DNA of 44,455 bases. Origin: Sphingomonas parva (ex Maeng et al. 2020) (lineage in GTDB: Bacteria > Pseudomonadota > Alphaproteobacteria > Sphingomonadales > Sphingomonadaceae). The stretch is from positions 1 to 44,455 of the forward strand of contig NZ_SPDV01000039.1 of the NCBI RefSeq assembly GCF_004564275.1. Reading direction: 5' to 3'. The notes below the pieces were generated by a model. That model saw only the letters and a program-made list of their open reading frames with translations. It made no database searches and was not told the DNA's origin. Shown here one piece after another: positions 12,801-37,609 of this stretch; within the stretch, counting starts at the first letter, position 1; each line of letters starts with the position of its first letter. Position numbers and translations under genes: made by a program.

Positions 12801-15401
12801 TCAGCGCGGCGCGGCGTCGCCCGGAGCGAAGCTGAAGTCGGTCCAGCGGGCGATCCGCTCGGCCGCAGCGTCGGCCGCCACCGGCCGGCCGAAATAATAG
12901 CCCTGGCCCATGCTGCAGCCCTGGGCCGCCAGGCAGACGGCCTGCGTCTCGCTCTCGATGCCCTCGGCGATCGTCCGCAGGCCCAGGCTCTTCCCGAGGC
13001 TGATCAGCGCATTGACGATCGCCGCGTCCTCGGGATCTTCCTCGATGTCGCGAACGAAGCTGCGGTCGATCTTGATGATGTCGACCGGAAAGCGCTTGAG
13101 GTGCGACAGCGAGGCGTAGCCGGTGCCGAAATCGTCCAGGGCGATGCGCACGCCTTCCGACGAGAGCAAGTTGAGCGCGCGATCGACCAGCTCCGAGCCG
13201 CGGCCGAGGAACACCGTCTCCGTCACCTCGAGCTCGAGGCAGGAGGCGGGAACGTCTCCCGCCTTCAGCAGCCCGAGCACGCGCTCGGCGAAATTGTCGC
13301 GCCGGAATTCGGCGGCCGAGGCGTTCACCGCCACCCGGCCGAACGGCAGGCCGCCGTCCAGCCAGCGGCGCATGTCGGCGATCACCCGCTCGAACATACG
13401 ATCGCTGATGCTGGTCGCCAGCTCATTGTCCTCGAACGCGGCGGCGACGCTGCCGGGCAGCTGAAGGCCGCGGTGGCGGTCGCGCCAGCGCAGCAGCGCT
13501 TCGAAGCCGACCAGCTTTCCCGAGTGGAGATCGACCTGCGGCTGGTAGTGCGGCTCGATCGCGTTCGAGGCGAGCGCGCCACGCGCGAGGCTCAGCATCG
13601 ATGCGCGCTGCTGGATGACGGCGCGCATCTCCGGCCGGAACATGGTGACGCGACCACGTCCTTCCGCCTTCGAGACGTAGAGGGCGATGTCGGCGTGCTT
13701 GAACATCGCCTCGGCGCCGTCGAACTCGGCGCGCGAGGTGGTGGCGCCAATGCTGGCGCGGACCTCGATCGACTGGTCTTCGAGGCGGAACGGAATACCG
13801 AGCTGCGCGATGACGCGCTCGGCGATTGCCAGCACCTCTTCGTCGGACGCGGGCTGCGCCAGGAGGATGGCGAACTCGTCGCCGCCGAGCCGCGCCACCG
13901 TGTCGTGCTCGCCCACGGCCTTGCGGATCCTCTCCGCCGAGACCTGGAGGAGCCTGTCGCCGGCATCGTGTCCGAGAGTGTCGTTGATCAGCTTGAAGTC
14001 GTCGAGGTCGACGAGCAGCAGCCCCGCGCAGCAATCCGGGGCGCGGCCGGTGCTGACGGCCTGATGCAGCCGTTCCTGGAAGGTCAGTCGGTTGGCGAGC
14101 CCGGTGAGCGGATCGTGCCGCGCGGCCCAGGTGACCTGGTCCTGCGCCTCCTTGCTCTCGGTGATGTCGCGGATCGCGACGATACTCCGCGTCGTCGTGC
14201 CGCTTTCGTCCCGCACGCGATGGATGTCGAAGGTCAGCCAGCGCACCGCACCCGTGTCGGCGCGGCGGAAGCGGAAGAGCTTGGCGTTCGGCGGGAGCGC
14301 GGGATCCGGATCGTCGCCGTCGATCACGGCGGTCACCACCTTGCGGTCCTCCTCCACGACGCGCTCGAGGAACAGGGCGGTATCGGCGGGGACCTCGGCC
14401 GCGAAACCCAGCATGTCGCGCAATTCGTCCGACCAGCGGCGGGTTCCGGAGGCGTGATCATAATCCCAGATGGCGAGGCCGGTGGCGCGAACGGCGAGGC
14501 GATAGACCTCCTCGACGGAGAGCAGCGCCGCCTCGGCACGTTTTTGATCGTCGATGTCCTCGAGCGTACCGTACCAGCGCACGATCTCGCCTTGCTCGTT
14601 GCGGCGCGCGCCGGCTCGTGCCCGCACCCACAGCCCGCCTCCGTCGAAGCGCCTCATCCGGTATTCGCTGTCGAGGGTCTCGCCGGTCTCGAGCGAATGA
14701 CGCCAGGCGGCCTCGGCCCGTTCCCGGTCGTCCGGATGGACGAACTCCAGCCAGCCGTGGCCGAGCGCGTCGTCGCGCGGCCGGTCGCTGGCCTGGAAGC
14801 CGCGCTGGCTGACCTCGATCAGGCGACCGGAAGGATCGGCGGTCCAGGGGATCTGCGGGCTGAGCTCGACGGTGTAGCGATAATGCTCCTCGCTCTCCCG
14901 AAGCTTTTCCTCGATCGCCTTGCGTTCGGTGATGTCCTGCAGGATGCCGCGGACAGCCGTCACCTGCTTGTGCTCGTCCAGCACCGGGCGGACCTCGGCC
15001 CAGCAGTGGCGGGTCTCGCCGTCGGGACGGATGATGCGGAACTCGGCAGCGTCGTCGCTGCCGCCGGCGATCGTGCTCAGCAGGCGCTGGTGGACGCCGG
15101 CGACATCGTCCGGATGGATGCAGGACAGGGAGCTCTCCAGCGTCGGCTTGTAGGTGGCGCGATCCCGTCCGGCGATCCGGAACATCTCGTCGGACCAGGC
15201 GAATGCCTGCGTTGCGACCGTCCACCGCCAGATGCCGAGCTTGGCGATCCGCTGCGCCTCCGCCAGATCATCGGCCAGGGTCTCGATGCTGGTCGCCAGC
15301 TCCGCGAGCCGTTCCGGGCCCACCGACGCGGTGCGCGGCGGCTCCGTGCGGCGGCGGGGTATCTGCGAGGAAATGTCGTTGTGAGCGTACATGACAGCCA
15401 T
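12801..15401 (-). CDS. PAS-PAS-PAS-GGDEF-EAL c-di-GMP signalling protein
   Basis: The 866-residue protein has three PAS/PAC units (about 45-165, 170-290 and 295-415; PAC endings GILQDITERK, GTLEDIDDQK, AIRDITESKE). A GGDEF domain follows (430-590, motif GGDEF at 506-510) and then an EAL domain (605-855). The EAL residues needed for phosphodiesterase activity are all seen: FEALLRW, VNASAAEF, ELEVTET, ALDDFGTGYASL, IKIDRSFV, AEGIES and QGYYFGRP. Both activities, or a GTP-tuned phosphodiesterase, are possible. No membrane segment was seen, so it is probably cytoplasmic. The start may be 15401 or the ATG three codons on. It lies 128 bases behind the histidine kinase at 15530-16639, same strand, and is probably co-transcribed. 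Confidence 0.93.
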   Translation of the reverse strand: MAVMYAHNDISSQIPRRRTEPPRTASVGPERLAELATSIETLADDLAEAQRIAKLGIWRWTVATQAFAWSDEMFRIAGRDRATYKPTLESSLSCIHPDDVAGVHQRLLSTIAGGSDDAAEFRIIRPDGETRHCWAEVRPVLDEHKQVTAVRGILQDITERKAIEEKLRESEEHYRYTVELSPQIPWTADPSGRLIEVSQRGFQASDRPRDDALGHGWLEFVHPDDRERAEAAWRHSLETGETLDSEYRMRRFDGGGLWVRARAGARRNEQGEIVRWYGTLEDIDDQKRAEAALLSVEEVYRLAVRATGLAIWDYDHASGTRRWSDELRDMLGFAAEVPADTALFLERVVEEDRKVVTAVIDGDDPDPALPPNAKLFRFRRADTGAVRWLTFDIHRVRDESGTTTRSIVAIRDITESKEAQDQVTWAARHDPLTGLANRLTFQERLHQAVSTGRAPDCCAGLLLVDLDDFKLINDTLGHDAGDRLLQVSAERIRKAVGEHDTVARLGGDEFAILLAQPASDEEVLAIAERVIAQLGIPFRLEDQSIEVRASIGATTSRAEFDGAEAMFKHADIALYVSKAEGRGRVTMFRPEMRAVIQQRASMLSLARGALASNAIEPHYQPQVDLHSGKLVGFEALLRWRDRHRGLQLPGSVAAAFEDNELATSISDRMFERVIADMRRWLDGGLPFGRVAVNASAAEFRRDNFAERVLGLLKAGDVPASCLELEVTETVFLGRGSELVDRALNLLSSEGVRIALDDFGTGYASLSHLKRFPVDIIKIDRSFVRDIEEDPEDAAIVNALISLGKSLGLRTIAEGIESETQAVCLAAQGCSMGQGYYFGRPVAADAAAERIARWTDFSFAPGDAAPR

Positions 15402-15529: not shown

Positions 15530-16639
15530 TCAGTCGCTTGCCGTCGGAATTGCGATGCAGAAGCAGGCGCCGCCTTCCTCGTTGGCGGCGGCCCAGAGAC
15601 GGCCGTGCTGCGCCTCGACGATCATCCTGGAGACGGAGAGGCCGATGCCCATGCCTTCCTCCTTGGTCCCGGAGAAGGGCGTGAACAACGTCTCGCGCTC
15701 CTCCTCGCTCAGACCCCGACCGGTATCGCGGACATCGATGCGAACCTCGTCTCCGCTGCGATAGGCGGAGATCCGCAGATGCTTGCGCTCGCATCCGTCC
15801 ATCGCCTCGACGGCGTTGCGGATCAGGTTGATCAGCACCTGCTGCAGCTGCATGCGGTCGAACTGCACCATCAGCTGCGGCGGATGGGTGATGGTCTTGC
15901 GGATCTGGGTGCCCTCGGGGCCGATCAGCGCCACGGCCGCCGCTTCCTCGATCGCTTCGCCGACGTCGACGCGCTCGCGCGCCGCCTTCGATCGCACCGT
16001 CATGTTGCGCAGCCGCCGGATGATGTGGGCGGCACGGGTGGTGTTCTGGCGGGCGGCGGGGATCAGCTCGCGCAGCCGGTCGAGCGCAGGCGGGTCGGCG
16101 TCCAGCGCCATCTCGCATGCGGCCAGATAGTTGGTCACCGCGGCGAGCGGCTGGTTGAGCTCATGCGCCAGCGTTGAGGCCATCGCGCCCATCGCGCTGA
16201 CCCGCGACATGTGGACGAGCTCGGCCTGGAGATTGGCGATCTTCGTCGCGGCCTCCATGCGCGCGCTGATGTCGCGGATGAAGCCGAGGAAGAGAATCTC
16301 CTGGAATCGCCCGGTCAGCATCACCGCGAGCTCGACGGGGATCTCGCTGCCGTCCCGGCGGAGCGCCACCGTCTCGATCTGGCGGCCGAGGATGCCCACC
16401 TCGCCGGCACGGAGAAACCGCTCGAGGCCGGACTTGTGGGCCTGGCGCAGCCGCTCCGGAATGATCAGCTCGCTGAGATCCTGGCCGATCGCCTCGCTGG
16501 CGGTCCACCCGAACAGGCGCTCGCATATCTGGTTCCAGCCGAAGACGGTGCCGTCGGCGCGCATGACCACAACCGCGTCGAGCGCGGTGTCGAGCACGGC
16601 AGCGAGAAGCTGCCCTCCGGTCTCCGGCGAGGTCGGCAT
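15530..16639 (-). CDS. Soluble PAS-domain sensor histidine kinase, FixL type
   Basis: The 369-residue protein has one PAS domain (about 10-125; VVVMRADGTVFGWNQICERLFGW; ALRRDGSEIPVEL; FIRDISAR). A HisKA-type dimerisation helix follows with the phospho-acceptor H159 in STLAHELNQPLAAV. The HATPase_c domain has the N box NLIRNAVEAM, G1 DTGRGLS and G2 GMGIGLSV. No transmembrane segment was seen. The H box matches the FixL/DctB-like subgroup, as in the kinase at 19961. Its partner is unassigned: the FixJ-type regulators at 11400 and 12214 lie on the other side of the GGDEF-EAL gene. It is divergent from the ftsZ pair across 225 bases. Confidence 0.92.
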   Translation of the reverse strand: MPTSPETGGQLLAAVLDTALDAVVVMRADGTVFGWNQICERLFGWTASEAIGQDLSELIIPERLRQAHKSGLERFLRAGEVGILGRQIETVALRRDGSEIPVELAVMLTGRFQEILFLGFIRDISARMEAATKIANLQAELVHMSRVSAMGAMASTLAHELNQPLAAVTNYLAACEMALDADPPALDRLRELIPAARQNTTRAAHIIRRLRNMTVRSKAARERVDVGEAIEEAAAVALIGPEGTQIRKTITHPPQLMVQFDRMQLQQVLINLIRNAVEAMDGCERKHLRISAYRSGDEVRIDVRDTGRGLSEEERETLFTPFSGTKEEGMGIGLSVSRMIVEAQHGRLWAAANEEGGACFCIAIPTASD

Positions 16640-16827
16640 GTGCGCGGCCTACACCGCAGCAGGCGGATTTGGACAGCCCGTATATCTACAAAGCGCGCTC
16701 AATAGCGTGCGCCGCAAGAGGCTGTGGCGAGTCCGGGCCCGCCGCTCCGTAGAATCCCGCTAGGTACACTTCCGCAATATCTCGTCATCAATTCCAAGAA
16801 GTAGTTACCGAGTCATTAACGGAGAGA

Positions 16828-16864: not shown

Positions 16865-18328
16865 ATGATGATGACCGACGCTGTGAGCAATTACGGTTCC
16901 GAGCTTCGTCCACGTATCTGCGTCGTTGGCGTTGGGGGCGCTGGTGGTAACGCAGTCGCCAACATGATCGAGCACGGCGTGACGGGCGTCGAGTTCATCG
17001 TCGCGAATACCGATGCGCAGGCGCTCAATGCCTCGCCGGTGGAACGCGGCATCCAGCTCGGCCGCGAGATCACCCAGGGTCTCGGCGCGGGCGCCGCTGC
17101 CGAGATCGGCCGCGCCGCCGCGATGGAGTCGCTGGACGAGATCGTCGCCGCCCTCGACGGCGCGCACATGTGCTTCATCGCGGCCGGCATGGGCGGCGGT
17201 ACCGGAACCGGCGCCGCCCCGGTGATCGCCGCCGCGGCGCGTGCCCGCGGCATCCTGACGGTCGGCGTGGTCACCAAGCCGTTCGGCTTCGAGGGCCGCC
17301 GGCGCGCCGCCGCGGCCGAGGAAGGCCTCGCCGCCCTGACGCCGCACGTCGACACGCTGATCGTCATCCCGAACCAGAATCTGTTCCGCGTGGTCTCGCC
17401 GAGCACCACCTTCCGCCAGGCCTTCCGCATGGCCGACGAGGTGCTGGAGCAGGGCGTGCGCAGCATCAGCGACCTCATTCTCATGCCAGGCCTGATCAAC
17501 CTCGATTTCGCCGACGTGCGCACCATCATGCTGTCGATGGGCAAGGCGATGCTCGGCACCGGCGAGGCCAGCGGCGAGCGCCGCGCGACCGACGCCGCGG
17601 AGCGGGCGATCAACAACCCGCTGCTCGACGGCGCCATCCGCGGCGCGCGCGGCCTGATCATCTCGGTGGCCGGCGGCGAAGACATGCGCTTGATGGAGAT
17701 CGACGAGGCGGCGATGCGCATCAAGGACGAGATCCACCCCGACGCCAACATCATCTGGGGCTCGGCGGTCGACCCGGCGCTGGAGGGGCGTATCCGCGTT
17801 TCGATCCTCGCCACCGGCATCGACGGCGAAACCGCTACGGCCGCGGCCGACCAGCTCGAGACGCCGGCGGCAATGCCTTTCGCAGCGTCGCAGGCGGCGC
17901 CGGTCGCCGCCGCCGCGGAGATCGCCGTGTCTCGGTCGACTGCGGTGATTGAGCCTGCGGAACCGATCGCAGAGGCCGCCGAGCCGGTGGAGGAGCCTTT
18001 TTACGAGGTCCAGATCGCCGCACCGTGGGAAGACGGCTACGCCGCCACCGACACGCTGGTTCTCGCAGCCTCCGACGCCGTGACCGTCGAGGGGCCGCGC
18101 ATCGATCCGGCGGCCGCCTTCTTCCGCGAGCCGCGCGGCAGCGACGAAGGACTGATCCTGGTCCAGCCGCCTGCGCCGGCCGCGCCCGCCTTCGCCGCGG
18201 GCGAGTTCGGCGGCGGCCGCCCGGTGCACAAAGCGGTCGCGGCGCCGCTCCGCGGGCCGAGCCTGCTCCAGCGCCTGTCGATGCTGGCGCGCGGCGATGG
18301 CGGCCGCGGCGGCCATCTTCCTCGCTGA
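16865..18328 (+). CDS. FtsZ paralogue 1 (tubulin-like GTPase without canonical C-terminal peptide)
   Basis: The 487-residue protein has a complete FtsZ GTPase core (about 16-320): [12 protein letters not shown] (T1), [20 protein letters not shown] (T3 region), signature GGGTGTG at 110-116, [22 protein letters not shown] and the T7 catalytic loop N212-L-D214-F-A-D217. It should therefore bind GTP, polymerise and hydrolyse. The remaining 165 residues are a proline/alanine/acidic linker. It ends in [15 protein letters not shown] and a short basic tail, without the DIPxFLRRQ-type terminal peptide that normally binds FtsA and other tethers. Context is signalling genes, not a murein/division cluster, so this is probably a second ftsZ. 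Alternative starts are the tandem ATGs at 16865-16873. Confidence 0.88.
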
Positions 18329-18384
18329 TCTGACCGGCGGCGCCGTCGAGGCGTCTGTCCCCTCGCTGTTCGAAGGATCGAGAG

Positions 18385-19791
18385 ATGGTGCTGACCAAGC
18401 TGTTCAAGGCGCGCGACACCGAAGCCCCGGCTGAGGCGCCGGCCATGGCCGAGCTGCGGCCGCGGATCTGCGTGGTGGGCATCGGCGGCGCCGGCTGCAA
18501 TGCGGTCCGGCACATGATCCGCAACGGCCTCGAGCGGGTCGAGTTCGTCGCCTGCGACACCGACGTCCGCGTGCTCGACGCCTCGCCGGCGGAGACCCGG
18601 ATCCTGCTTCGCGAGAAGACCAGCGGCCGTCTTCCGGTCGATCCGCGCCGCCAGTCGCCCGCCGATCGCGCCCTCGACGACGAGATTGCCGAGGCCCTCG
18701 CAGGCGCGCAGATGTGCTTCATCGCCGTCGGCATGGGCGGAGGCACCGGAACCGGCGCGGCGCTGCGGATCGCGTCCTGGGCACGGCGCAACAACATCCT
18801 CACCGTCGCCGCGGCGACCAAGCCGTTCCGCTTCGAAGGCCGCCGCCGCTATCTGGCCGCCGAGCGCGGCATCGAGGAGCTGCGCCGCGCGGTCGATACG
18901 ATGATCGTCATCCCCAACGAGAATCTGCTGCGCTCGACCGGTGCCGAGGCCACGGTCACCGCCGCGTTCGAGGCGGCCGATGCGGTGCTGGAGCAGGGCG
19001 TCCGCTCGATCACCGACCTCATCGTCAACCCCGGTATCGTCAATCTGGACTTCGCCGACGTCCGCGGGATCATGCAGGGCATGGGCAAGGCGGTGCTCGG
19101 CACCGGCGAGGCCGAAGGGGCCGACAGGGCGGTGACGGCCGCGCAATCGGCGGTTTCCAATCCGCTGCTCGACGGCGCACTCGACGGCGCCAACCACCTG
19201 ATCATCTCGATCGTCGGAGGCGAGGACATGCGCCTGATCGAGATCGACGAGGCGGCGCGCTATATCACCGGCCGCGTCCATCCGGAGGCGCAGATCATCT
19301 GGGGCTCGTCGCAGGATCCGGCGATGGACGGCCGCATCCGCGTCTCCGTGGTCGCCACCGGGCTCGACTCCCCGGCCGGGAAGGCGCTGCGGCCGCGGCG
19401 GACCTCCTCCTGCCGCTTCCGCAAGCACCAGGCGCAGCCGAGCGCGATCTACAACCAGGGCTTCTATTTCAGCACCTGCCGCAATTGCGGCGAGGACATG
19501 ATCAGGACCGGCGGCGACTGGCAGGCGGTGCCCAAGGGCCTTCGGGTGGTCTGGCCCGGAAGCGCGCCCGCGGCTTCGGTCCGGCCGGCCGGCAAGAGCC
19601 GTGACGCCCGTCCGGCGTCGCCGAGGCGGGGAACGGCGCGACCGCTGGCGCCGCTTCAGCTCGCGGCGGCGGGCCTTCGCGTCCTGCTGTGGCGCGGCGG
19701 GGACCTGCTGCGCCATTTCCACTGGCGGCGCGCCCACCGCCGCCGCGCCGGAGGCGTCCTTCTGCTTCCTCCGGCACCCGCGACCCGCTGA
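18385..19791 (+). CDS. FtsZ paralogue 2 fused to a zinc-ribbon-like C-terminal domain
   Basis: The 468-residue protein has an FtsZ-like core at about 25-328: VVGIGGAGCNAV, signature GGGTGTG (118-124) and T7 loop N220-L-D222-F-A-D225. Where FtsZ has the NTD motif it has CDTD. The whole glycine-rich T3 loop is replaced by a basic, proline-containing segment (REKTSGRLPVDPRRQ, 76-90), so gamma-phosphate contact and GTP turnover may be impaired. The core runs straight into a domain with C343-x4-H348 and C365-x2-C368 (CRFRKH...CRNCG) and DWQAVPKGLRVVW, a zinc-ribbon-like pattern that I recall from stand-alone sphingomonad hypothetical proteins. A basic, tryptophan-containing tail follows. It lies 56 bases after paralogue 1 with an AAGGA SD, surely in one operon. 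Confidence 0.85.
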   Translation: MVLTKLFKARDTEAPAEAPAMAELRPRICVVGIGGAGCNAVRHMIRNGLERVEFVACDTDVRVLDASPAETRILLREKTSGRLPVDPRRQSPADRALDDEIAEALAGAQMCFIAVGMGGGTGTGAALRIASWARRNNILTVAAATKPFRFEGRRRYLAAERGIEELRRAVDTMIVIPNENLLRSTGAEATVTAAFEAADAVLEQGVRSITDLIVNPGIVNLDFADVRGIMQGMGKAVLGTGEAEGADRAVTAAQSAVSNPLLDGALDGANHLIISIVGGEDMRLIEIDEAARYITGRVHPEAQIIWGSSQDPAMDGRIRVSVVATGLDSPAGKALRPRRTSSCRFRKHQAQPSAIYNQGFYFSTCRNCGEDMIRTGGDWQAVPKGLRVVWPGSAPAASVRPAGKSRDARPASPRRGTARPLAPLQLAAAGLRVLLWRGGDLLRHFHWRRAHRRRAGGVLLLPPAPATR

Positions 19792-19960: not shown

Positions 19961-22318
19961 ATGGCACGTGGTCAGTCGCCAGAGCCGCAGGCGGCGGTGT
20001 TCCTGCCGGTGGGGAAAACGGCAATGGGTATTGAGGCGCAAGATCGGGCGACGACGGCACTTTGCGCCGCGGCCGGCGCCTGCGCCGGGCTGGTCCTCAC
20101 CGGATGGGCGATCGACGCACCGGCGCTGACCGGCTTCGGCAGTCCGCTCACTGCGCAGCCGCTCACCGCCGTCGCCTTCCTCGTCCTGACCGCCGCGATG
20201 CTCTTCGCGCTCGCCGAACGAAAAATGCTGGCGACCCTGCTGGCGGTGGTGCCGGCCCTGATCGGGGCGAGCGCGCTCTTCCAGGAGATTGCGGGGGTCG
20301 CGCTCGGCACCGACACCTTGCTCTTCGCCGATCGCGTGACGCGCCAGGCCTTGCCGGAGCCCGGCCGGCCCTCCACGGCGGTCGCTCTCGGCCTCCTCCT
20401 GCTCAGCGGCGGGGCCGTCGCGGCGACGCGCAAGGGCCTGCGCATGGGGCAGACGGCCGCCGTGCTGGCGATCACCGGCTTCGGCGCGATTGCGGTGGCC
20501 GGGGCCGCCCTGCCGCTGGCTGCCGAGCTGACCGATCCCGCCTTCCGCTATGTCGCCGCGCCTTTGCCGGCGATGATCTGCGGGGTCCTGCTCGCCATCG
20601 CCCTGCTCGGGTGGCGCGGCTCGGTCTGGGAGGGGTTGCTCGCCGGCCTCGGGCTCGACCGGACCCTGCTCCAGGTCGTCCTCCCGTTGCTCGTCGTGAC
20701 TCCGGTCGCCGCCGAGTGGATCGAGGAGCGCGCCAAGGGCGCGGGGCTCGATCCGGTCGTTGCCGGCAGCGTCGAGACCGGGCTCAACATTGCCGCGATG
20801 GCGGCGCTGCTCTTGTGGGTGACGAGCCGGGCGGCGCGCGAGCAGCGGGCCCGAAGGGCGCTGACCCGGGCACTCGATTCCGCCCCGATCGCGCTTACCG
20901 ACACCTCCGGCCTTGTCATCCACTGGTCCAAGGGATGCGAGCAGCTCTACGGCTGGGGCCAGGCAGAAGCGCGCGGCCGGCGGAAGTACGATCTGCTCGC
21001 CTCCGCGACCGGGCAGGATGAGTCCGCCGCCTGGCCGAGCGGCTCCGCGGGCTGGGAAGGCGAGCTGATCGAGCGCAAGCGCGACGGCAGCACCGTCAAC
21101 ATCCTCGAGCGGGCCCGCCTGCTCGAGCCGCGCCACGGCGGCGATCCGGTCTTCGTCCTGTCGATGACCGACATCACCGCGCGGACCCAGGCGGAGGCGG
21201 CGCTCCGCGAGAGCGAGGCGCGGCTCACGCTCGCCATGGACACCAACGATATCGGCATCATCGAATGGGACGCCGTCGCCGGACGGTTCACCCAGTCGCG
21301 GGGCGCCGGGCGCAGCCTCGGTCTCGCCGAGGGCGGGATCAGCAGTCTCGCCGACTGGCGCGCCCGTATCGATCCGGCCGATCGTGCCGCTCTCTTCTCG
21401 CGGATCAACAATGCGATCGCCCGGCAACAGCCCCGCATCCGCTTCCGGCACCGCTTCGTCAGGCCCGACGGCTCGAAGCGCATGCTCGAGACCAGCGCCG
21501 CCTGCTTCTACGATGCCGCCGGCAAGCTCACGCGCCTGATCTGCGTCTACATCGACGTGACCGAGAAGGAGGAATGGGAGAGCCGGCTGGCGCAGCTGCA
21601 GGACGAGGTCATGCACGTCTCGCGCCTCAGCGCAATGGGCGAGATGGCGTCCGGCCTCGCCCACGAGCTCAATCAGCCGCTCACCGCGGTGGTCAATTTT
21701 CTCGGCACCGCCAAGGTCCTGCGCGCCACCGGCGACGACAGCAAGCTCGACGATCTGCTCGCGGCGGCGAGCCAGCAGGCGCTTCGCGCCGGACAGATCA
21801 TCCGCCGCCTGCGCACCTTCGTGTCGCGCGGCACGGTCCAGGAGGAATGGACCTCGATCGGCGAGCTGATCGAGGATTCGATCGCGCTCGCGCTCGCCAG
21901 CCGGGGGCGCAACGACGTCGATCTGCGGATCGAGACCGAGGATCCGGATCAGCTGGTCTGCGCCGATCGCGTCCAGATCCAGCAGGTTCTCGTCAACCTG
22001 CTGCGCAATGCCGCCGAGGCGCTCGATCAGATGCCGCCCGAGCGGCGCGAGATCGTCGTCACGTCGGCGATCGACGGCGATCCGGAACGCCTCCTCGTTT
22101 CCGTGCAGGACAATGGTCCAGGCCTTCCAAAGGAGATGCTGGACAGTCTGTTCACGCCCTTCGTTTCGGGTAAAGAGGGCGGGATGGGCGTCGGCCTCTC
22201 GATCTGCAAGCGCATCGTCGAGGCCCACGGCGGCACGCTGAGAGCCGAGAACAACCAGCACGGGGGCGCGACCTTCCGGTTCACGCTTCAGACCAGACCA
22301 GGAGATGATGAAGTATGA
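19961..22318 (+). CDS. Membrane-bound PAS histidine kinase, FixL type
   Basis: The 785-residue sensor has about eight hydrophobic segments in the first 290 residues (a MASE-like integral membrane region). Two PAS/PAC units follow (about 292-410, ending SMTDITARTQ, and 415-540, ending VYIDVTEKEE). The HisKA helix has phospho-acceptor H568 in GLAHELNQPLTAV, and the HATPase_c domain has NLLRNAAEAL, DNGPGLP and GMGVGLSI. The TGA overlaps the ATG of the FixJ-type regulator at 22315 by four bases, so the two form a kinase-regulator pair. The start is uncertain: an ATG at 20024 has a better SD (GGGGA) and would remove 21 residues. The signal sensed is unknown. Confidence 0.92.
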   Translation: MARGQSPEPQAAVFLPVGKTAMGIEAQDRATTALCAAAGACAGLVLTGWAIDAPALTGFGSPLTAQPLTAVAFLVLTAAMLFALAERKMLATLLAVVPALIGASALFQEIAGVALGTDTLLFADRVTRQALPEPGRPSTAVALGLLLLSGGAVAATRKGLRMGQTAAVLAITGFGAIAVAGAALPLAAELTDPAFRYVAAPLPAMICGVLLAIALLGWRGSVWEGLLAGLGLDRTLLQVVLPLLVVTPVAAEWIEERAKGAGLDPVVAGSVETGLNIAAMAALLLWVTSRAAREQRARRALTRALDSAPIALTDTSGLVIHWSKGCEQLYGWGQAEARGRRKYDLLASATGQDESAAWPSGSAGWEGELIERKRDGSTVNILERARLLEPRHGGDPVFVLSMTDITARTQAEAALRESEARLTLAMDTNDIGIIEWDAVAGRFTQSRGAGRSLGLAEGGISSLADWRARIDPADRAALFSRINNAIARQQPRIRFRHRFVRPDGSKRMLETSAACFYDAAGKLTRLICVYIDVTEKEEWESRLAQLQDEVMHVSRLSAMGEMASGLAHELNQPLTAVVNFLGTAKVLRATGDDSKLDDLLAAASQQALRAGQIIRRLRTFVSRGTVQEEWTSIGELIEDSIALALASRGRNDVDLRIETEDPDQLVCADRVQIQQVLVNLLRNAAEALDQMPPERREIVVTSAIDGDPERLLVSVQDNGPGLPKEMLDSLFTPFVSGKEGGMGVGLSICKRIVEAHGGTLRAENNQHGGATFRFTLQTRPGDDEV

Positions 22319-22935
22319 GCACCCGCACCATCTACGTCGTCGATGACGACGACGATGTCCGGCTCTCGCTGCAGTCGCTGCTCTCGGTGCTTCCCAACAC
22401 TCTGGTGTGGGGCTTCCGCTCTGGAGATGCCTTTCTCGAGCGCGCCGAGGAGCTCGGGCCGGGCGTGATCCTGCTCGATTACCACATGCCGGGCTCGACG
22501 GGGCTGGACGTGCTGAAGGCGATCCAGCCTTATGGCCCCAAGTTCGTGGCGGTGGTGCTGACCGGCCATGGCGAGGTCAGCCTCGCGGTCGAGGCGATGA
22601 AGTCGGGGGCGCTCGATTTCCTCGAGAAGCCCTATGAGCACGATGCGCTGCTCGAGACGCTGAACAGCGCGTCCGCCCAACTGGAAGAGAGCAGCGAGCA
22701 GATCGCCCGGGTCGAGGCGGCCAAGGCGAAGATCGATCGCCTGTCGCAGCGCGAGGTGCAGGTGATGCACGGACTGATCCAGGGCCGTTCGAACAAGGTC
22801 ATCGCCTATGACCTCGATCTCAGCCCGCGGACGATCGAGATCTACCGCGCGAACCTGATGGACAAGCTCGAGGTGAACAACCTCTCCGACATCCTGCGGA
22901 TCGCCTTCACTGCTGGACTGGTACCGAGCGCCTGA
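22315..22935 (+). CDS. FixJ-family response regulator, partner of the upstream kinase
   Basis: The 206-residue regulator has a receiver (YVVDDDDDVRLSLQ; phospho-acceptor D55 in VILLDYHMPGSTG; LTGHGEVSLAV; FLEKPYEHD). A linker helix and a LuxR/FixJ HTH follow (LSQREVQVMHGLIQGRSNKVIAYDLDLSPRTIEIYRANLMDKL). It overlaps the kinase gene by four bases and converges on the GGDEF gene, sharing its last 29 bases with that gene's 3' end. So mutual antisense interference of the two messages is possible. Target genes are unknown; the adjacent ftsZ pair and flagellar genes are candidates by position only. Confidence 0.94.
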   Translation: MSTRTIYVVDDDDDVRLSLQSLLSVLPNTLVWGFRSGDAFLERAEELGPGVILLDYHMPGSTGLDVLKAIQPYGPKFVAVVLTGHGEVSLAVEAMKSGALDFLEKPYEHDALLETLNSASAQLEESSEQIARVEAAKAKIDRLSQREVQVMHGLIQGRSNKVIAYDLDLSPRTIEIYRANLMDKLEVNNLSDILRIAFTAGLVPSA

Positions 22936-30441: not shown

Positions 30442-31731
30442 TTGAGCCTCTATTCCGCGCTTTATGCCGGCGTGTCGGGCCTTTCTGCGCAATCGAGCGC
30501 GATGGCCGGCGTCGCCGACAACATCACCAACATCAACACCGTCGGTTACAAGGGCGTGCAGACCGAGTTCCGCACCCTCGTCACCGACGGCCGCGCCAAG
30601 ACCAGCTATTCGGCCGGCGGCGTGACCGCCGCGCCGCAGGCGCTGATCTCGAAGCAGGGCATGCTCCAGTCCTCGTCGAGCGACACCGACATCGCGATCG
30701 ACGGCGCCGGCTTCTTCGTCGTGCGCGCGGGTAGCGCGCCGAGCAGCGAGGTGAGCTTTACCCGCGCCGGCTCGTTCAAGCCCGACGCCGAAGGCTATCT
30801 GCGCAACACGAGCGGCCTCATTCTCCAGGGCTGGCGTCTCGACACGCAGGGCAATTATCTCGACACCGGCAGCCTCGACACGCTCGAGCCGGTCCGTCTC
30901 AGCGATCTCACCGGCACCGCGATGCCGACCTCGAAGCTCGAGATCCGCGCCAACCTGCAGTCGACCACGCCGATCAACCCGGCGGCCGGCACCTATGTTG
31001 CCGGTCAGATGCAGTCGGGCGCCGTGACGCCGGATTTTTCGCGCGCGCTGGACGTCTATGATGCGCAGGGCACCGCCCACCGCGTCACCGTCGGTTTCAT
31101 CAAGACCGGTGCGAACACCTGGCAGTCGGAGATCTACGGCCAGGCCGGCGACGTCACCACGCCGCTGCTCGCCTCGGGCACCGTCACGTTCGACGGCGAA
31201 GGCAATCTCGCCACCCTGCCGGCCAGCTTCAACGCGCTGACCATCAACTGGACGAACGGCGCCGCGCCGCTCAACGTCGATCTGAACCTCGGCGATCCGG
31301 GCTCGCTCAACGGCCTCACCCAGTTCGGCAGCGAATCCGCGCTGATCTCGTCGATCGTCGACGGCGGCGTGCTCGGCAACCTGGCCTCGATCGAGGTGTC
31401 GAAGACCGGCCGCGTCAGCGCCGTGTTCGACGACGGCACCACCCGCGAGGTGTTCCAGCTGCCGATCGCCACCTTCGCCAATCCGAACGGTCTCACCCGC
31501 GTCTCGGGCAACGCCTTCCAGATGTCGGCCCAGTCGGGCAACGTGGCGATCAACAAGGCCGGCGCGCTCGGCGCCGGCATGATCGCCAGCGGCTCGCTCG
31601 AGGCGTCGAACGTCGATCTCGCCGGCGAGTTCACCAACATGATCCGCTTCCAGCGCGCCTACAGCGCCTCGTCGAAGATCATCACCACCGTCGACGACAT
31701 GCTCCAGGAAGTCAGCAACCTGAAGCGCTAA
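30442..31731 (+). CDS. flgE: Flagellar hook protein FlgE
   Basis: The 429-residue hook subunit has the conserved rod/hook N-terminus (SLYSALYAGVSGLSAQSSAMAGVADNITNINTVGYKG). The middle hook domains follow (VSFTRAGSFKPDAEGYL; DVYDAQGTAHRVTVGF). The C-terminal flg_bbr_C helix reads GSLEASNVDLAGEFTNMIRFQRAYSASSKIITTVDDMLQE. Exported by the flagellar type III system, it polymerises outside the cell. The TTG start at 30442 is supported by AGGAG at seven-base spacing. flgD, usually just upstream, is absent; instead flbT is divergent. Confidence 0.95.
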   Translation: MSLYSALYAGVSGLSAQSSAMAGVADNITNINTVGYKGVQTEFRTLVTDGRAKTSYSAGGVTAAPQALISKQGMLQSSSSDTDIAIDGAGFFVVRAGSAPSSEVSFTRAGSFKPDAEGYLRNTSGLILQGWRLDTQGNYLDTGSLDTLEPVRLSDLTGTAMPTSKLEIRANLQSTTPINPAAGTYVAGQMQSGAVTPDFSRALDVYDAQGTAHRVTVGFIKTGANTWQSEIYGQAGDVTTPLLASGTVTFDGEGNLATLPASFNALTINWTNGAAPLNVDLNLGDPGSLNGLTQFGSESALISSIVDGGVLGNLASIEVSKTGRVSAVFDDGTTREVFQLPIATFANPNGLTRVSGNAFQMSAQSGNVAINKAGALGAGMIASGSLEASNVDLAGEFTNMIRFQRAYSASSKIITTVDDMLQEVSNLKR

Positions 31732-31737
31732 TGCCTC

Positions 31738-31765
31738 CGGCCCGGCCGCTCACCCGGCCGGGCCG
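31738..31765. repeat. Perfect 11-bp hairpin between flgE and flgK
   Basis: CGGCCCGGCCG pairs with CGGCCGGGCCG across a six-base loop, seven bases after the flgE stop. There is no T-run, so it may be an RNA stabiliser or partial terminator that keeps hook message levels above those of flgK-flgL. Confidence 0.5.
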
Positions 31766-31798
31766 CAAATTCCCTGAAGTGTGAAGGAAACGATCGGC

Positions 31799-33886
31799 GT
31801 GTCTTTGAACGAGATCCTCGGGTCAGCGATATCGGGCCTCTCCGCGTCCCAGGCGGGGCTGCGCTCGGTCTCGAACAACATCGCCAACGTCGATACGCCG
31901 GGCTATGCGCGCGAGCGCGTGGCGCTGAGCGCCGCCGTGACCAACGGCCGCGTCAACGGCGTCGTCGTCGGCGAGCCGGAGCGTATCGCTGATCGCTTCC
32001 TCGAAATGAGCGTCTACCGCCGTTCCGGCGACATGGGCCAGTCGGAGGTCACTGCGACCTATCTCGACCGGCTCCAGTCGCTGCTCGGCCAGCCGGGCGC
32101 GGAGGGCGGCCTTCCGGCGCGGCTCGACGCGATCTCCGCCTCGGCGGTGCGGCTGACCAGCGGCACCGCCGCCAGCCAGGTGATCTCCGCCTTCACCGGC
32201 GACGTCGAGGATGCGATCGTCTCGATGCGCCAGCTCGACGGCGACGTCGCGACGATGCGCACCGACGTGGAGGCCGAGGTCGGCTATACCGTCGAGCGCG
32301 TCAATGCGCTGCTCGGCCGGATCCACGAGCTCAACGACAACGTCGCCCGCCTCCAGGGCCTCGGCAAGAGCCCCGCCGGCGCGATCGACCAGCGCGTCGC
32401 CGCGCTCGAGGAGCTCAGCTCCCTGATCAAGGTCACCGTGCGCGACCAGCCGGACGGGCGCGTGATCCTCGAGACGCCGCAGGGCCAGACGCTCCTCGAC
32501 AGGAGGGTTCGCCAGCTCGATTATGCGGTCGCCGGAACCGGCGTCGCGCAGCACGTCTACCCTCCGATCACCATTCGTTTCGCGGAGCCGAACGGCACGA
32601 TGGGACCGGCGACGGGCGACAAGATCGACAGCGCCGCGATCGGCGGAAAGCTCGGCGGGCTGATCGACCTTCGCGACCGTGCCCTGCCCCAGTTTTCCGA
32701 CAAGCTCGGCGTCCTGTTCGGCGGCCTCGCCCAGACCCTGAACGCCGCCTCGAACGCGAGCACGTCGCTGCCCGCGCCGGCGCAGCTCGAAGGCCGCTCC
32801 ACGGGCCTCACCGGCACCGACCGGCTCGGCTTCACCGGTTCCACCACCTTCGCCGTGGTCAAGAGCAATGGCGAGCTCGTCGCCAAGACGAGCATCGATT
32901 TCTCGACGCTCGCCACGGTCAACGATGCCGTCGCCGCGATCAACGCGGGCCTCGGCGGCGCAGGCACCGCGACCTTCACCGGCGGCAAGCTGGTGATCGC
33001 CGCGAGTGCGGCCGGGAACGGAGTCGCCACCGGCCAGGACGAGACCAACCCGAGCAGTCGCGCCGGCGTCGGCTTCGCGCAATATTTCGGCCTCAACGAC
33101 CTGGTTCGCACCCCGGAGAGCACGCTCGTGCCGTCGGGCTTCGTCGGCACCGATCCGCACGGCTTCTCGCCCGGGCAGAGCGCCGAGATCGTGCTGCGCG
33201 ACGCCTCGGGCCGGTCGTTGACCCGCTTCACGCTGACGCCGACCGGCACCAGCTTCAACGACGTTCTCACCCAGCTCAACGCGAGCCCGCTCGGCGGCTT
33301 CGGCGCGTTCGCGCTCGACACCAAGGGCAGGATCCAGTTCCAACCCAACCCGATGGTGACGGGGGCGTCGCTGTCGATCGTCTCCGACACCACCGATCGC
33401 TTCGGCACCGGCCGCTCGTTCACCGCGCTCAGCGGCCTCACCGGCGCGTCGATGGGCCTCAACCAGGCCGAGCTGCCCAAGCAGATCGCCGACAATCCCG
33501 CCGCCGTTCCGCTCGCCAAGCTGCAGATCGGCGCCGCGGTGGGCGAGCGCGCGATCGGCCAGAGCGACATGCGCGGCGCGACCGCGTTCATTGACGAGCT
33601 GGCGAAGCCGATGGATCTCGGCCGCGAGGGCGTGGCGACGATCGAGCGCTACTCAGGCCTCCTGCTCGGCGGCGCCGGCGCGGAAGCCGCGCGCGCGGCC
33701 GAGCGCTATGACGACGCGTCGGCGCGACGCGACGACGCGGTCAACCGCCGCGACAGCTTCGGCGGCGTCAACATCGACGAGGAGCTCGCCCAGATGGTCG
33801 TGCTCCAGAACAGCTATTCGGCGGCGGCCCGGGTGATCACCACCGCCAGCGAAATGTACGACACCCTGATCAACATGATCCGCTGA
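31799..33886 (+). CDS. flgK: Hook-filament junction protein FlgK (HAP1)
   Basis: The 695-residue hook-associated protein has the N-terminal SAISGLSASQAGLRSVSNNIANVDTPGYARERV. Helical segments follow to about 220, then a long variable middle, and the C-terminal helix VNIDEELAQMVVLQNSYSAAARVITTASEMYDTLINMI. It forms the first junction ring between hook and filament. The GTG at 31799 (VSLNEIL) has a GGAAA SD; an earlier in-frame GTG at 31781 would add six residues. flgL follows after eight bases. Confidence 0.94.
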   Translation: MSLNEILGSAISGLSASQAGLRSVSNNIANVDTPGYARERVALSAAVTNGRVNGVVVGEPERIADRFLEMSVYRRSGDMGQSEVTATYLDRLQSLLGQPGAEGGLPARLDAISASAVRLTSGTAASQVISAFTGDVEDAIVSMRQLDGDVATMRTDVEAEVGYTVERVNALLGRIHELNDNVARLQGLGKSPAGAIDQRVAALEELSSLIKVTVRDQPDGRVILETPQGQTLLDRRVRQLDYAVAGTGVAQHVYPPITIRFAEPNGTMGPATGDKIDSAAIGGKLGGLIDLRDRALPQFSDKLGVLFGGLAQTLNAASNASTSLPAPAQLEGRSTGLTGTDRLGFTGSTTFAVVKSNGELVAKTSIDFSTLATVNDAVAAINAGLGGAGTATFTGGKLVIAASAAGNGVATGQDETNPSSRAGVGFAQYFGLNDLVRTPESTLVPSGFVGTDPHGFSPGQSAEIVLRDASGRSLTRFTLTPTGTSFNDVLTQLNASPLGGFGAFALDTKGRIQFQPNPMVTGASLSIVSDTTDRFGTGRSFTALSGLTGASMGLNQAELPKQIADNPAAVPLAKLQIGAAVGERAIGQSDMRGATAFIDELAKPMDLGREGVATIERYSGLLLGGAGAEAARAAERYDDASARRDDAVNRRDSFGGVNIDEELAQMVVLQNSYSAAARVITTASEMYDTLINMIR

Positions 33887-33894
33887 GAGGTATT

Positions 33895-34803
33895 ATGACC
33901 CGCGTCGCCACCATCCCGATCCAGCGCAACCTTTCCAGCGCGATCATGCGCAGCCAGCAGAAGCTCGCCGAGACGCAGCTGCAGCTCGCAACCACCAAGA
34001 AGGCGCGCGACTATGCGGCGCTGGGCACCGAAACGGTGCGCCACATCTCGGCGCGCACCCTGCTCGCCAAGCAGGAGGCGCAGAGCGACGTGCTGACGAC
34101 GCTCGGCACCACGCTCACCCTCTACGATGCCAACATGAGCGGCATCGAGACCGCGGCGAGCGAGCTGCGCCAGTCGCTGCTCGAAGCGATCGGCACCAAT
34201 TCCTCGGGCGGCCTCCAGGAGGCGATCGAGCAGGCCTTTTCGGCGTACCGCAACGGCCTCAACGCCTCGGAAGGCGGGCAGCCGCTGTTCGCCGGCTCGC
34301 GTACCGATGCGCCGCCGTTCAAGGCCGATACCCTGGCCGACACCCTGGCCCTCACCACCGCCACGGCCTTCACCGACGATACGATCCGTCCGACCGCGCG
34401 CGTCGCGGAAGGCTTCGACGTCCAATATGGCGCCGGCGCGAGCGAGATCGGCACCGGCCTGTTCATCGCCTTCCAGAAGCTGGCGACCGCGGGCTCGATC
34501 GGCCTCGTTCCCACCGATGCGCAGATGACGGTCCTCAAGGACGCGGTGGGTCTGATCGAGACGGGCCTCGACGAGCTGCGCGACGTCAATGCCGAGAACG
34601 GCCGCAAGCAGAAGCAGATCGAATCGATCGCGGTGCGCGGCGAAGAGCGCACCCTGCTGCTCAAGGACGTGATCGGCCGCAACGAGGACGCCAACCTCGC
34701 CGAGGTGGCGAACGATCTCGCCCAGCAGCAGACGACGCTGCGCGCCTCCTACTCGGTCTTCTCTCAGCTCTCCGCTTTGTCGCTGACCGAATATCTCCGC
34801 TGA
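33895..34803 (+). CDS. flgL: Hook-filament junction protein FlgL (HAP3)
   Basis: The 302-residue flagellin-like protein has the N-terminal helix PIQRNLSSAIMRSQQKLAETQLQLATTKKARDYAALG and the C-terminal helix LAEVANDLAQQQTTLRASYSVFSQLSALSLTEYL. The C-terminal pattern is shared with flagellins and FlgL. It forms the second junction ring on which the filament grows. It ends before a palindrome and a strong terminator at 34808-34888. Confidence 0.9.
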   Translation: MTRVATIPIQRNLSSAIMRSQQKLAETQLQLATTKKARDYAALGTETVRHISARTLLAKQEAQSDVLTTLGTTLTLYDANMSGIETAASELRQSLLEAIGTNSSGGLQEAIEQAFSAYRNGLNASEGGQPLFAGSRTDAPPFKADTLADTLALTTATAFTDDTIRPTARVAEGFDVQYGAGASEIGTGLFIAFQKLATAGSIGLVPTDAQMTVLKDAVGLIETGLDELRDVNAENGRKQKQIESIAVRGEERTLLLKDVIGRNEDANLAEVANDLAQQQTTLRASYSVFSQLSALSLTEYLR

Positions 34804-34807
34804 TCAG

Positions 34808-34847
34808 GTCATCCGGGCCCGCGCCTGAAAGCGCGGGCCCGGATGAC
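34808..34847. repeat. Perfect 17-bp palindrome after flgL
   Basis: The arms GTCATCCGGGCCCGCGC and GCGCGGGCCCGGATGAC flank a CTGAAA loop. Its outer GTCATCC...GGATGAC resembles the palindromic intergenic repeats typical of sphingomonads, and relates to the element at 5312-5331. It may also act as a first terminator stem. Confidence 0.6.
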
Positions 34848-34857
34848 GAGCAAGGAA

Positions 34858-34888
34858 AAAGGCCGGGCGCTGGCAGCGCCCGGCCTTT
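34858..34888. terminator. Bidirectional intrinsic terminator between flgL and the TPR gene
   Basis: AAAGGCCGGGCGC pairs with GCGCCCGGCCTTT over a five-base loop. The A-run on the left and T-run on the right allow termination of both converging transcripts. Confidence 0.85.
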
Positions 34889-34914
34889 CTTCGTTTTGGC
34901 AGATGCCTGGAGCT

Positions 34915-36765
34915 TCAGCTCTTCTTCGAGACCTCGAGGAGGTCCGCAATCTCGCCCGCGGGGCTGGCCGATGGGATCGCCGCCATCGCCTTGCCGAGCT
35001 TCTCGGGATCGACGGCGCTCACCTCGCTGGTCAGCGCATCGAACGCCGCCGCCGTCGGCAGCGACGCGAAAGCGCCGGCATAGCGGGCACGCAGCTCGGC
35101 GATCTCGGGCTCCCGTCCAGTCATCGCGAGCGCGACGGCGTGCCGGAGGATCGTCGCCTGGGCGACGTCGCTCAGCCTTCCGGCGGCCGGGAGGCTGGGG
35201 GCAGTCGCGGCGGCGAGCGCATTCCAGTCGCGCGCCTTCCACAGGATCTCCGCCTGCAGCAGGCCGCCGTTCGGCACCTCCTGGAGCACGGCGAAGGCCT
35301 CGGCGGTGCGGCCGAGCTGGGTCAGCGCCACCGCTTCCATGCGGTAGCGTTCCCACAGCATCTCGCGCGGATAGATCACGTCGGTGGTCTTGCGGATGGC
35401 CGCCAGCGCGCGATCGGGACGTCCGGCCAGGATGTGCAGCGTCGCCACCTTGGCGGAGAGCGGACCCTTGGCGAGATCGTGGGCGCGGGCGAACAATTGA
35501 TGCTCGAGGAGCTCGGCCGCCTTTTCGTAGAGCCCGGCGCTCTGCAGCCGGTCGGCGAAGCGGTTGACGAGCAGGTCGCCCTCGGCCCCGAGCGGGGCGA
35601 GGGCGCGGAAATCCCAGTAAAGGCCCAGCGCCTGGTCGAGCGGCATTCCGTTGGCCGGATCGAGCACGGCGGTGAGCTTGGCCTGCAGCTCCGCCGCGAG
35701 CGGCGGCCCGGCGGCGCCGAGCTCGAAATAGTTGAACAGGGTCGAGCCGGCCGAGAGGGCGCCGCGAACGTCACCCGCCTCGGTGCTCAGCCGGTAGCTG
35801 AGCTCGAGCGCGCGCCGCTCGATCGGGCCGCCGCGCCAACTGTAGCGGATGCGATCGAGCTTTTCGATCGCCGCTTTGGCCGACATGTCCTTGCGCGCGA
35901 CCGCCGCCTCGATCGCGCTGAGATCGGCGTCGATCCGTTGCTCCTCGCTGCCGCTGCTGGCGACGCGGCCGAGCTGGATTCGCGCGTCGCCGGGTTTGCC
36001 GAGCATCAGGAATGCGCGCCCGCGCAGCAGGTCGCCGGCCGGATCGCCATTGGGCACCTGGCGCAGGGTGGTGACGGCAAGATCGGCGCGACCGGTCTCG
36101 ATCGCGGCGGCGGCGGCGGCGAGGGCGAAGCGCCGCCGCTCGGCCGTCGGGCGGCCGTTGAGCGCGGGCAGGGCGCAGTTGAGCTGGGACAGCGCCTGGG
36201 CGGCGAAGCCGGACTCGGCCAGCACCAGCATGCGCCAGGCGCAAGCCTCGGAATTGCTCGCCAGTCCGGGGCCGACCAGCGCGCTCAGCGCTTCCTCGGG
36301 ACGGCGCATCTGGGCGAAAGCGGCGCCCTTGGCCAGCCGAAAGGTGTCGACGAGCGCGAGATCCGGATCGTCGCTTTCCATCACTTCCAGGACACCGGCG
36401 GCATCGCTGCCCAGCCCTTGGCCGATCAGGCTCGCCGCGTAGCGCCAGCGGGCTCGCTGGCGGCTCTCCGCATCGGCAAGCGCGAGCGCCTTCCAGGCAT
36501 CCTCGTGGCTGACATAGGTCCAGGCCTCGCGGCCGTTCGGGGCAGGCGCTTCGGAAAGCTCGTTGGCGAAGCCGGGCAGCCGCCCCTCGCTGCGGCGCTC
36601 GGCCGGCAACGGTGCCGGGGCGGCGGCGGGGCTCGCCAACGGCGGCTGTGCTTCGCCGCCGATCAGCGCTTCGGTTTCGGCGGCATGCTGGTCTTCCGGC
36701 GCCTGGGCGAAGACGGCGGCCGAGAGGGCGGCCGCCGCGGCCGCCGCATAGAGACGTGGCTTCAT
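34915..36765 (-). CDS. Exported TPR-like repeat protein of the flagellar cluster
   Basis: The 616-residue protein begins with a signal peptide (MKPRLYAAAAAAALSAAVFA, probable cleavage near AFA-QA). A proline/alanine-rich stretch follows, and then more than 450 residues of helical repeats rich in alanine, leucine and arginine (TFRLAKGAAFAQMRRPEEALSAL, LLRGRAFLMLGKPGDARIQL, TLHILAGRPDRALAAI). These are typical of TPR-like scaffolds. No catalytic motif was seen. Its ATG overlaps the stop of the membrane-protein gene at 36762-37019. That pair has a TCCTATAAT element like fliL and flbT, so a periplasmic scaffold for motor or stator assembly is a reasonable inference. The specific family is unknown to me. 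Confidence 0.75.
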   Translation of the reverse strand: MKPRLYAAAAAAALSAAVFAQAPEDQHAAETEALIGGEAQPPLASPAAAPAPLPAERRSEGRLPGFANELSEAPAPNGREAWTYVSHEDAWKALALADAESRQRARWRYAASLIGQGLGSDAAGVLEVMESDDPDLALVDTFRLAKGAAFAQMRRPEEALSALVGPGLASNSEACAWRMLVLAESGFAAQALSQLNCALPALNGRPTAERRRFALAAAAAAIETGRADLAVTTLRQVPNGDPAGDLLRGRAFLMLGKPGDARIQLGRVASSGSEEQRIDADLSAIEAAVARKDMSAKAAIEKLDRIRYSWRGGPIERRALELSYRLSTEAGDVRGALSAGSTLFNYFELGAAGPPLAAELQAKLTAVLDPANGMPLDQALGLYWDFRALAPLGAEGDLLVNRFADRLQSAGLYEKAAELLEHQLFARAHDLAKGPLSAKVATLHILAGRPDRALAAIRKTTDVIYPREMLWERYRMEAVALTQLGRTAEAFAVLQEVPNGGLLQAEILWKARDWNALAAATAPSLPAAGRLSDVAQATILRHAVALAMTGREPEIAELRARYAGAFASLPTAAAFDALTSEVSAVDPEKLGKAMAAIPSASPAGEIADLLEVSKKS

Positions 36766-37019
36766 TGCGGCAGCGACGGCAGGACCAGCAGCGTGAACGC
36801 GATTCCGCCGGAAGCGCAGCACATCAGGAATAGCACGACGGGCACGAAGGCGAGGGCGCCGGTCTGAACCACCGCGGCGGGCTCGGGCGCCGCGACGCGA
36901 TCGGCGGCAGTGCCGTCGGCGGCCTCCGGATCCAAGTCGGTCCGGCGGCGGAGGGGCTGCGCCCCCGCGTCGCGCTGACCGATGACTCTGACTTTTCCTG
37001 GCTTCTGGTCGCGGCTCAT
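36762..37019 (-). CDS. Small single-span membrane protein
   Basis: The 85-residue protein has a charged N-terminal half (MSRDQKPGKVRVIGQRD...) and one hydrophobic span near the C-terminus (GALAFVPVVLFLMCCASGGIAFTLLVL). A cytoplasmic N-terminus with a C-terminal anchor is likely. A strong SD (GGAGG) precedes 37019. The gene overlaps the exported TPR gene by four bases (ATGA), so their products may form one complex across the inner membrane. It is divergent from the exported protein gene at 37121. I do not recognise a family. Confidence 0.7.
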   Translation of the reverse strand: MSRDQKPGKVRVIGQRDAGAQPLRRRTDLDPEAADGTAADRVAAPEPAAVVQTGALAFVPVVLFLMCCASGGIAFTLLVLPSLPQ

Positions 37020-37048
37020 CCCAGTCCTCCGGGTAACGATTTGTTTCT

Positions 37049-37057: not shown

Positions 37058-37120
37058 TGAAAAGAGCGGCATGCGGTCGCGGTGTAAGGCGGCCGAAAGA
37101 GAAAAAAGGGGAACAGGAAA

Positions 37121-37607: not shown

Positions 37608-37609
37608 CG

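Follow-up and report, generated by a model that had tools for sequence, protein, structure and literature searches.

What does a bacterium do with two neighbouring ftsZ paralogues that stand among signalling genes? The question is posed by positions 16865..19791 of a 44,455 nt stretch of Sphingomonas parva (contig NZ_SPDV01000039.1; "the window" below means this whole stretch), part of a genome of 4.49 Mb in 111 contigs. The first and the second paralogue are called Za and Zb here:

16865..18328, + strand: Za, FtsZ paralogue of 487 aa, T1-T7 loops intact, without a DIPxFL end
18385..19791, + strand: Zb, FtsZ paralogue of 468 aa, fused to a ribbon-helix module

A spacing of 56 bases separates the two genes. 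Coordinates, lengths and family matches agree with a preliminary description of the locus as two adjacent FtsZ-like genes. Both proteins carry Tubulin and FtsZ_C domains above the curated Pfam cut-offs, the FtsZ_C match spanning the domain end to end in each, and with the NCBIfam model TIGR00065 ftsZ they score 395.1 bits (Za) and 317.5 bits (Zb; cut-off 295.2). We tentatively favour the reading that Za and Zb build a signal-regulated accessory FtsZ structure, for which Zb would bring its own attachment module.

The genome contains four FtsZ matches. One of them lies on contig C21 in a cluster of the division and cell-wall (dcw) type, which runs from an mraZ-like gene through ftsA to ftsZ (gene names assigned by eye, except ftsZ and mraZ). 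The C-terminus of its product, DPLDIPRFLGRQNNQ, has a DIPRFL end, which Za lacks, as had been noted. A separate ftsZ thus combines the dcw location with the DIPxFL-type peptide, and the Za-Zb pair is therefore not the division gene. The proposal that the pair has a role other than that of the normal division gene holds after this genome search. The gene of the fourth FtsZ (L078, 7564-9030, contig C5) is flanked by a response-regulator-like gene and a PAS kinase gene, and its product has no DIPxFL end; FtsZs of this C5 type are present also in G014 and G015.

At least two FtsZ matches were found in 10 of 26 genomes of the genus. Two of the three matches in G006 resemble contig-end fragments of its dcw gene, and the single match in G023 (81% complete) is of the extra type. 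Three of the 26 genomes carry the Za-Zb pair: the own genome and two of the 25 others, G014 (Sphingomonas, now Allosphingosinicella, deserti) and G015. In a family sample of 219 genomes (215 outside the genus), three genomes had no match and a second complete FtsZ was seen only in G202; two adjacent matches in G032 were read as one broken gene. The 24 genomes from other families had one FtsZ apiece. A contig scan with Zb returned, among the best 80 of 110 loci, one ortholog (L085, Allosphingosinicella deserti) and 79 ftsZ loci of Bifidobacteriaceae. Wherever the pair occurs, its kinase, regulator, GGDEF and sigma-factor neighbours follow in the same order; the loci of G014 and G015 hold one additional regulator gene, and two minor genes were left uncalled in G015. 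A survey of synteny had been suggested for the pair. Since the genes remain together in all three genomes, a joint function of Za and Zb is likely.

The preliminary description took both proteins to be without a tether peptide. This is right for Za, but it overlooked the end of Zb, which consists of a ribbon domain and a hydrophobic helix:

19390..19557, + strand: ribbon domain of Zb, C-x4-H ... C-x2-C (24-sequence alignment)
19660..19740, + strand: C-terminal hydrophobic helix of Zb, residues ~426-452 (low-confidence model)

The ribbon domain starts at about residue 336 of Zb, and C-x4-H, N, C-x2-C, P, G and W are invariant in 24 sequences. Its conserved Cys and His residues are putative zinc ligands. 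The domain has no Pfam match, it matches an NCBIfam zinc-finger family weakly and below the cut-off (E 0.041), and none of the solved structures was a convincing relative (best E 0.33). The model of the Zb tail is poor (mean predicted local distance difference test score, pLDDT, 54), and the outer tail is rich in arginine. A profile was built from the tails of three stand-alone ribbon proteins encoded beside an extra ftsZ (G004, G020 and G021). With this profile the three Zb tails scored 21.6, 18.2 and 13.3 bits, values reached by 0, 0 and 1 of 1000 shuffles each, and the remaining ribbon tails scored 5.2 bits or less. Homology between Zb and the ribbon proteins hence extends beyond the domain into the helix, which leads us to regard Zb as a fusion of an FtsZ with a ribbon-helix protein.

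The ribbon family consists mostly of stand-alone proteins. At least one is encoded in 17 of the 26 genus genomes, the own genome has five members including Zb, and 39 of 119 genomes of the family sample gave matches, mostly weak outside the genus. Sister genomes have eight single-copy loci of extra ftsZ; seven of them (G004, G006, G010, G018, G020, G021 and G002) include a ribbon gene at a distance of 2 kb or less. The copy in G002 is a 50-residue remnant (L065, 6592-6744), and the locus of G023 has no ribbon gene. Adjacency at seven of eight loci has a chance of ~4e-17, a figure that is too small, as the pattern was seen before the test and the genomes are related, and whose direction is plain. 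Beside the ribbon gene a homologue of MraZ was recognized above the Pfam cut-off in G006, G018 and G020, and just below it in G010 (22.3 bits). The G004 protein in the MraZ position had no Pfam match (its G021 counterpart lay outside the scan). The genes point in the same direction throughout, in the order MraZ-ribbon-FtsZ in G018 and FtsZ-MraZ-ribbon in G006 and G010.

Several stand-alone ribbon proteins have a tail-anchor-like hydrophobic 19-mer near their end, with Kyte-Doolittle means of 2.34 (G018), 1.95/2.31 (G010), 1.74/2.24 (G006) and 2.35 (G000, contig C69). In the type nearest to Zb (G020, G004 and G021) the mean is 1.1-1.4, compared with 1.0-1.3 in Zb. As the ribbon domain is fused to FtsZ in one lineage and encoded adjacent to it in others, the ribbon protein and the extra FtsZ are likely to be functionally linked; a link of the ribbon protein to the membrane is plausible. 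A more far-reaching version, which we consider doubtful, would see in these loci a second FtsZ module of the genus, controlled by signals, in which a MraZ homologue and a ribbon protein acting as dedicated FtsZ anchor accompany an extra FtsZ. In the lineage of the window the anchor would have been fused to a duplicated FtsZ, giving Zb, the nucleotide face would then have been rebuilt, and Zb would anchor or cap Za filaments. If this were true, the module would represent a type of self-anchored bacterial FtsZ of which we found no description.

Pairs in which a MraZ-like gene precedes a ribbon gene encoding an anchor-like tail were also seen at L079 (2259-3172, contig C69 of the own genome), L083 (2543-3441), L084 (6643-7550), L184 (5623-6572) and L185 (6478-7349). 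They adjoin a divergent response regulator gene and have no extra ftsZ close by. The L184 pair is an intact MraZ-ribbon pair of G002, on a different contig from its remnant. At L051, L047 and L057, ribbon-family frames of 462-565 residues carry long low-complexity or otherwise unrelated tails.

Besides its end, the nucleotide-binding face of Zb has changed. The relevant segments are:

17498..17515, + strand: T7 loop of Za, N-L-D-F-A-D (sequence, alignment)
18619..18654, + strand: rebuilt T3 segment of Zb, basic and shortened, in place of the glycine-rich loop (alignment)
19042..19059, + strand: T7 loop of Zb, N-L-D-F-A-D, retained (sequence, alignment)

GGGTGTG (T4) is retained in both proteins, and the T7 motif N-x-D-x-x-D is intact in both across the three genomes that carry the pair, in line with what had been noticed before. 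Za has the T3 glycine loop as well. The earlier observation that Zb replaces this loop by a basic segment proved correct in all three genomes, and in T2 of Zb an N is exchanged for D. Departures were scored at 136 columns that are invariant among 31 dcw FtsZs, a column being counted only when it was changed in each of the three genomes. There are 6 such columns in Za and 23 in Zb, nine of the latter in the T3 region (dcw residues 70-92). An excess of Zb changes in the N-terminal over the C-terminal half was not significant (16/70 vs 7/66, p 0.07). The predicted structure of the Zb FtsZ core is fair (most blocks 70-92).

These loops bear on the model that had been put forward for the pair, an obligate co-polymer of one active and one GTP-locked subunit in the manner of alpha/beta-tubulin or BtubA/B. 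Two diverged paralogues side by side in 3/3 genomes would suit such a model. In alpha/beta-tubulin, the nucleotide is locked because the T7 of the partner is defective. Neither Za nor Zb has a defective T7, so no site would be locked by its partner, and the changed parts, T2 and T3, belong to the pocket of Zb itself. BtubA/B, moreover, are tubulins, and Za and Zb are FtsZs. The GTP-locked subunit is thus not borne out, and we regard the co-polymer model as very improbable.

The favoured accessory structure makes a different use of the two faces. The active site of FtsZ lies between two subunits, with the T7 aspartates acting on the nucleotide of the neighbour (PMC8936486; this and the other papers given by PMC number are cited from excerpts). 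Because Zb keeps its T7, it could complete the active site of a neighbour, its own nucleotide face being altered. Za, with a complete nucleotide face and T7, would be the GTPase-competent subunit and would have no tether of its own. With T2 and T3 rebuilt, Zb would be likely to differ in how it senses or holds GTP, and it may terminate or modulate the filament. A strongly diverged extra FtsZ from another genus (L187, 6481-8037, G202) has an intact T3 and a degenerate T7 in which N-x-D-x-x-D is lost, a mirror image of the change in Zb; its gene lies directly upstream of a kinase-FixJ pair.

The surroundings of the pair are those of a signalling locus:

12801..15401, - strand: PAS-GGDEF-EAL protein (domain scan)
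15530..16639, - strand: PAS histidine kinase, divergent from Za (domain scan)
16746..16779, + strand: upstream element of Za, CCGTAGAATC ... TAGGTAC-NN-TTCCGCAATA, candidate promoter or regulator site
19961..22318, + strand: PAS histidine kinase, downstream of Zb, same position in G014 and G015 (domain scan)
22315..22935, + strand: FixJ-type response regulator with receiver and LuxR-type helix-turn-helix (HTH) domains, 4-base overlap with the kinase gene

Both flanking kinases had been called FixL-type. Their PAS-HisKA-HATPase architecture was found by Pfam, and the label rests on this domain architecture only. In total, the scanned neighbours comprised two such kinases, three receiver-domain proteins (two with a LuxR-type HTH), the PAS-GGDEF-EAL protein and a GGDEF protein. 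The element at 16746-16779 is conserved in 3/3 genomes carrying the pair. With a tolerance of up to 3 mismatches, TAGGTACNNTTCCGCAATA has a single occurrence in the window (0 expected), and at the other scanned loci it was not found except at L070 and L073. Co-transcription of Za and Zb is probable, as is their control by a two-component system. Of 15 extra-FtsZ loci, 13 have a gene resembling a two-component or LuxR-type regulator at most ~5 kb away: six of eight single-copy loci (not G002 and G023), all three Za-Zb loci, all three C5-type loci and the G202 locus. Most of these regulators were recognised by their similarity to genes of the window, one by Pfam, and two at C5-type loci by eye. 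The order FtsZ-kinase-FixJ in G202 matches the order Zb-kinase-FixJ of the window.

Several observations weigh against an accessory structure with its own attachment. The association of extra FtsZs with signalling genes is suggestive only, such genes being common in these genomes and the count having no control. No ribbon gene was found near the three C5-type loci or the G202 locus, and the Za-Zb locus is without MraZ. MraZ-ribbon pairs occur without a nearby extra FtsZ (on the own contig C69, and in G011, which has a single FtsZ), so the ribbon protein would not be an exclusive partner of FtsZ and may serve others. The hydrophobicity of the Zb helix is modest and not clearly of membrane type, and an amphipathic helix was rejected, as the helical moment was no higher than in shuffles. 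The tail of Zb could instead bind another protein or nucleic acid, or sense redox, in which case FtsZ filaments would be linked to a cytoplasmic target and not to the membrane. The possible zinc ligands conserved in the ribbon domain, the arginine-rich outer tail with its ambiguous helix, and the quite different tails among members of the ribbon family would all fit this. We nevertheless consider it quite unlikely, given that several of the stand-alone relatives end in a strongly hydrophobic 19-mer, among them the G018 protein whose gene is in line with ftsZ.

Are the extra copies simply on their way to being lost? A tree was calculated from 50 FtsZ cores, a set without Rhizobiales or magnetosome paralogues, the extra FtsZs of Agrobacterium and Magnetospirillum among them. 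A single branch joins all 17 extra FtsZs (support 97/90), nested in a group (97/92) whose other members are housekeeping FtsZs from the genus itself and from two further genera of the family. Za and Zb share a subgroup with the C5 type (100/97). The stem of Zb is very long (3.2 changes per column) and its tips are short (0.04-0.2), which has the shape of a burst of change followed by constraint. With such a stem the position of Zb inside its clade is unsure (support 95/74), and the extra FtsZ of G202 (branch length 7.7) could not be placed. As part of our tentative reading as a whole, duplication within the bacterial family would best explain the origin of Za and Zb. Import from outside the family is not favoured, since the extra FtsZs cluster with family FtsZs in the tree so composed.

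The ratio of nonsynonymous to synonymous substitution rates (dN/dS; pairwise, Nei-Gojobori method NG86, among the three genomes with the pair) was 0.07-0.22 for the Za core, 0.04-0.14 for the Zb core and 0-0.017 for the dcw FtsZ. In the Zb ribbon domain (60 codons) it was 0.02-0.04, a constraint equal to or above that on the Zb core; the outer tail is the least constrained part of Zb (0.27-0.56). These values indicate that Zb is not decaying and that the pair is under purifying selection. That Za and Zb are redundant duplicates being lost, with no distinct role, is scarcely credible: the patchy occurrence of the pair in the genus and the ribbon remnant at the G002 ftsZ speak for it, but dN/dS is well below 1 in both cores and in the ribbon, and synteny and the upstream element are conserved.

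The favoured accessory structure would then work as follows. Za and Zb would be kept beside the normal dcw FtsZ as accessory copies. In Zb the FtsA-binding peptide would have been exchanged for the ribbon-helix module, a fused form of the protein that is encoded beside extra ftsZ genes in sister genomes, there often with a membrane-anchor-like end. Through this module a filament of Za and Zb may be attached either to the membrane itself or to a partner located there. The outcome would be a second, signal-switched FtsZ structure acting on the envelope or on division timing, possibly mixing with the housekeeping FtsZ. The main rival, unlikely in our view, goes further with such mixing. Extra FtsZs without the FtsA-binding end would join the housekeeping filament and dilute its anchoring, and the two-component system would slow or relocate division in this way, with no separate filament being formed. 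The Za core is ~70% identical to that of the dcw FtsZ and near-intact at the invariant positions. The DIPxFL end is absent from 16/16 extra FtsZs with a visible C-terminus (the 17th, of G023, ends after the core). In Agrobacterium, only the full-length one of three FtsZs is essential and localises independently, according to the excerpt of PMC13170164. A brake on division leaves unexplained, however, why the nucleotide face of Zb is rebuilt and why a strongly conserved ribbon domain is fused to it. The two readings are compatible, and both can be true.

Paired FtsZs that share out their tasks are known elsewhere. Of chloroplast FtsZ1/FtsZ2 (red-algal FtsZA/FtsZB), one is a weak direct membrane binder and the other binds a membrane protein (PMC11285052), and as we propose for Za and Zb, the C-termini of two paralogues divide the work. 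Unlike the chloroplast proteins, Za and Zb are extra to a housekeeping FtsZ, neither has a DIPxFL end, and Zb has a ribbon domain and a rebuilt T3. Odinarchaeota likewise have dual paralogues, FtsZ1 and FtsZ2, with differing tethering: OdinFtsZ1 binds the membrane directly by an N-terminal amphipathic helix, and the other paralogue uses SepF (PMC12583498). The putative attachment module of Zb, in contrast, is C-terminal and has a ribbon domain, and the pair is again extra to the housekeeping system. Also comparable are the alphaproteobacterial FtsZs that exist in addition to a full-length one, namely those of Agrobacterium (PMC13170164) and FtsZm of Magnetospirillum (title cited in PMC7676999). 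Za and Zb differ from these, which lie outside our tree, by family-internal duplication, the fused ribbon tail and the signalling/MraZ setting. The FtsZl1 and FtsZl2 families are FtsZ relatives that coexist with conventional FtsZ too (PMC2875224). Membership in them was rejected: FtsZl proteins are divergent and have no recognisable FtsZ C-terminal domain, whereas Za and Zb match FtsZ_C end to end and are close to housekeeping FtsZ.

In the open-licence literature we found no paper on the Za-Zb pair or the ribbon protein and none combining Allosphingosinicella and FtsZ; a search for FtsZ, paralog and Sphingomonas gave nothing on the subject, as judged by the listing. One FtsZ is usual in bacteria (PMC11285052), and it is anchored via a short conserved end (PMC12583498). 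A genus in which extra FtsZs without this end occur repeatedly, adjoining and once fused to one small protein family, offers a natural experiment on a filament that changes its anchor and its regulation. The ribbon protein is a candidate FtsZ partner that has no Pfam family. For annotation the locus is a trap, as Zb exceeds the NCBIfam cut-off for 'cell division protein FtsZ' and the division gene is elsewhere.

A flagellar link of the pair was rejected, since flagellin is encoded in 20 of the 26 genus genomes and the pair in three, with no specific association. The window itself resembles, by eye, a flagellar gene cluster from 30502 to 44453, in which only the flagellin at 43707 was confirmed.

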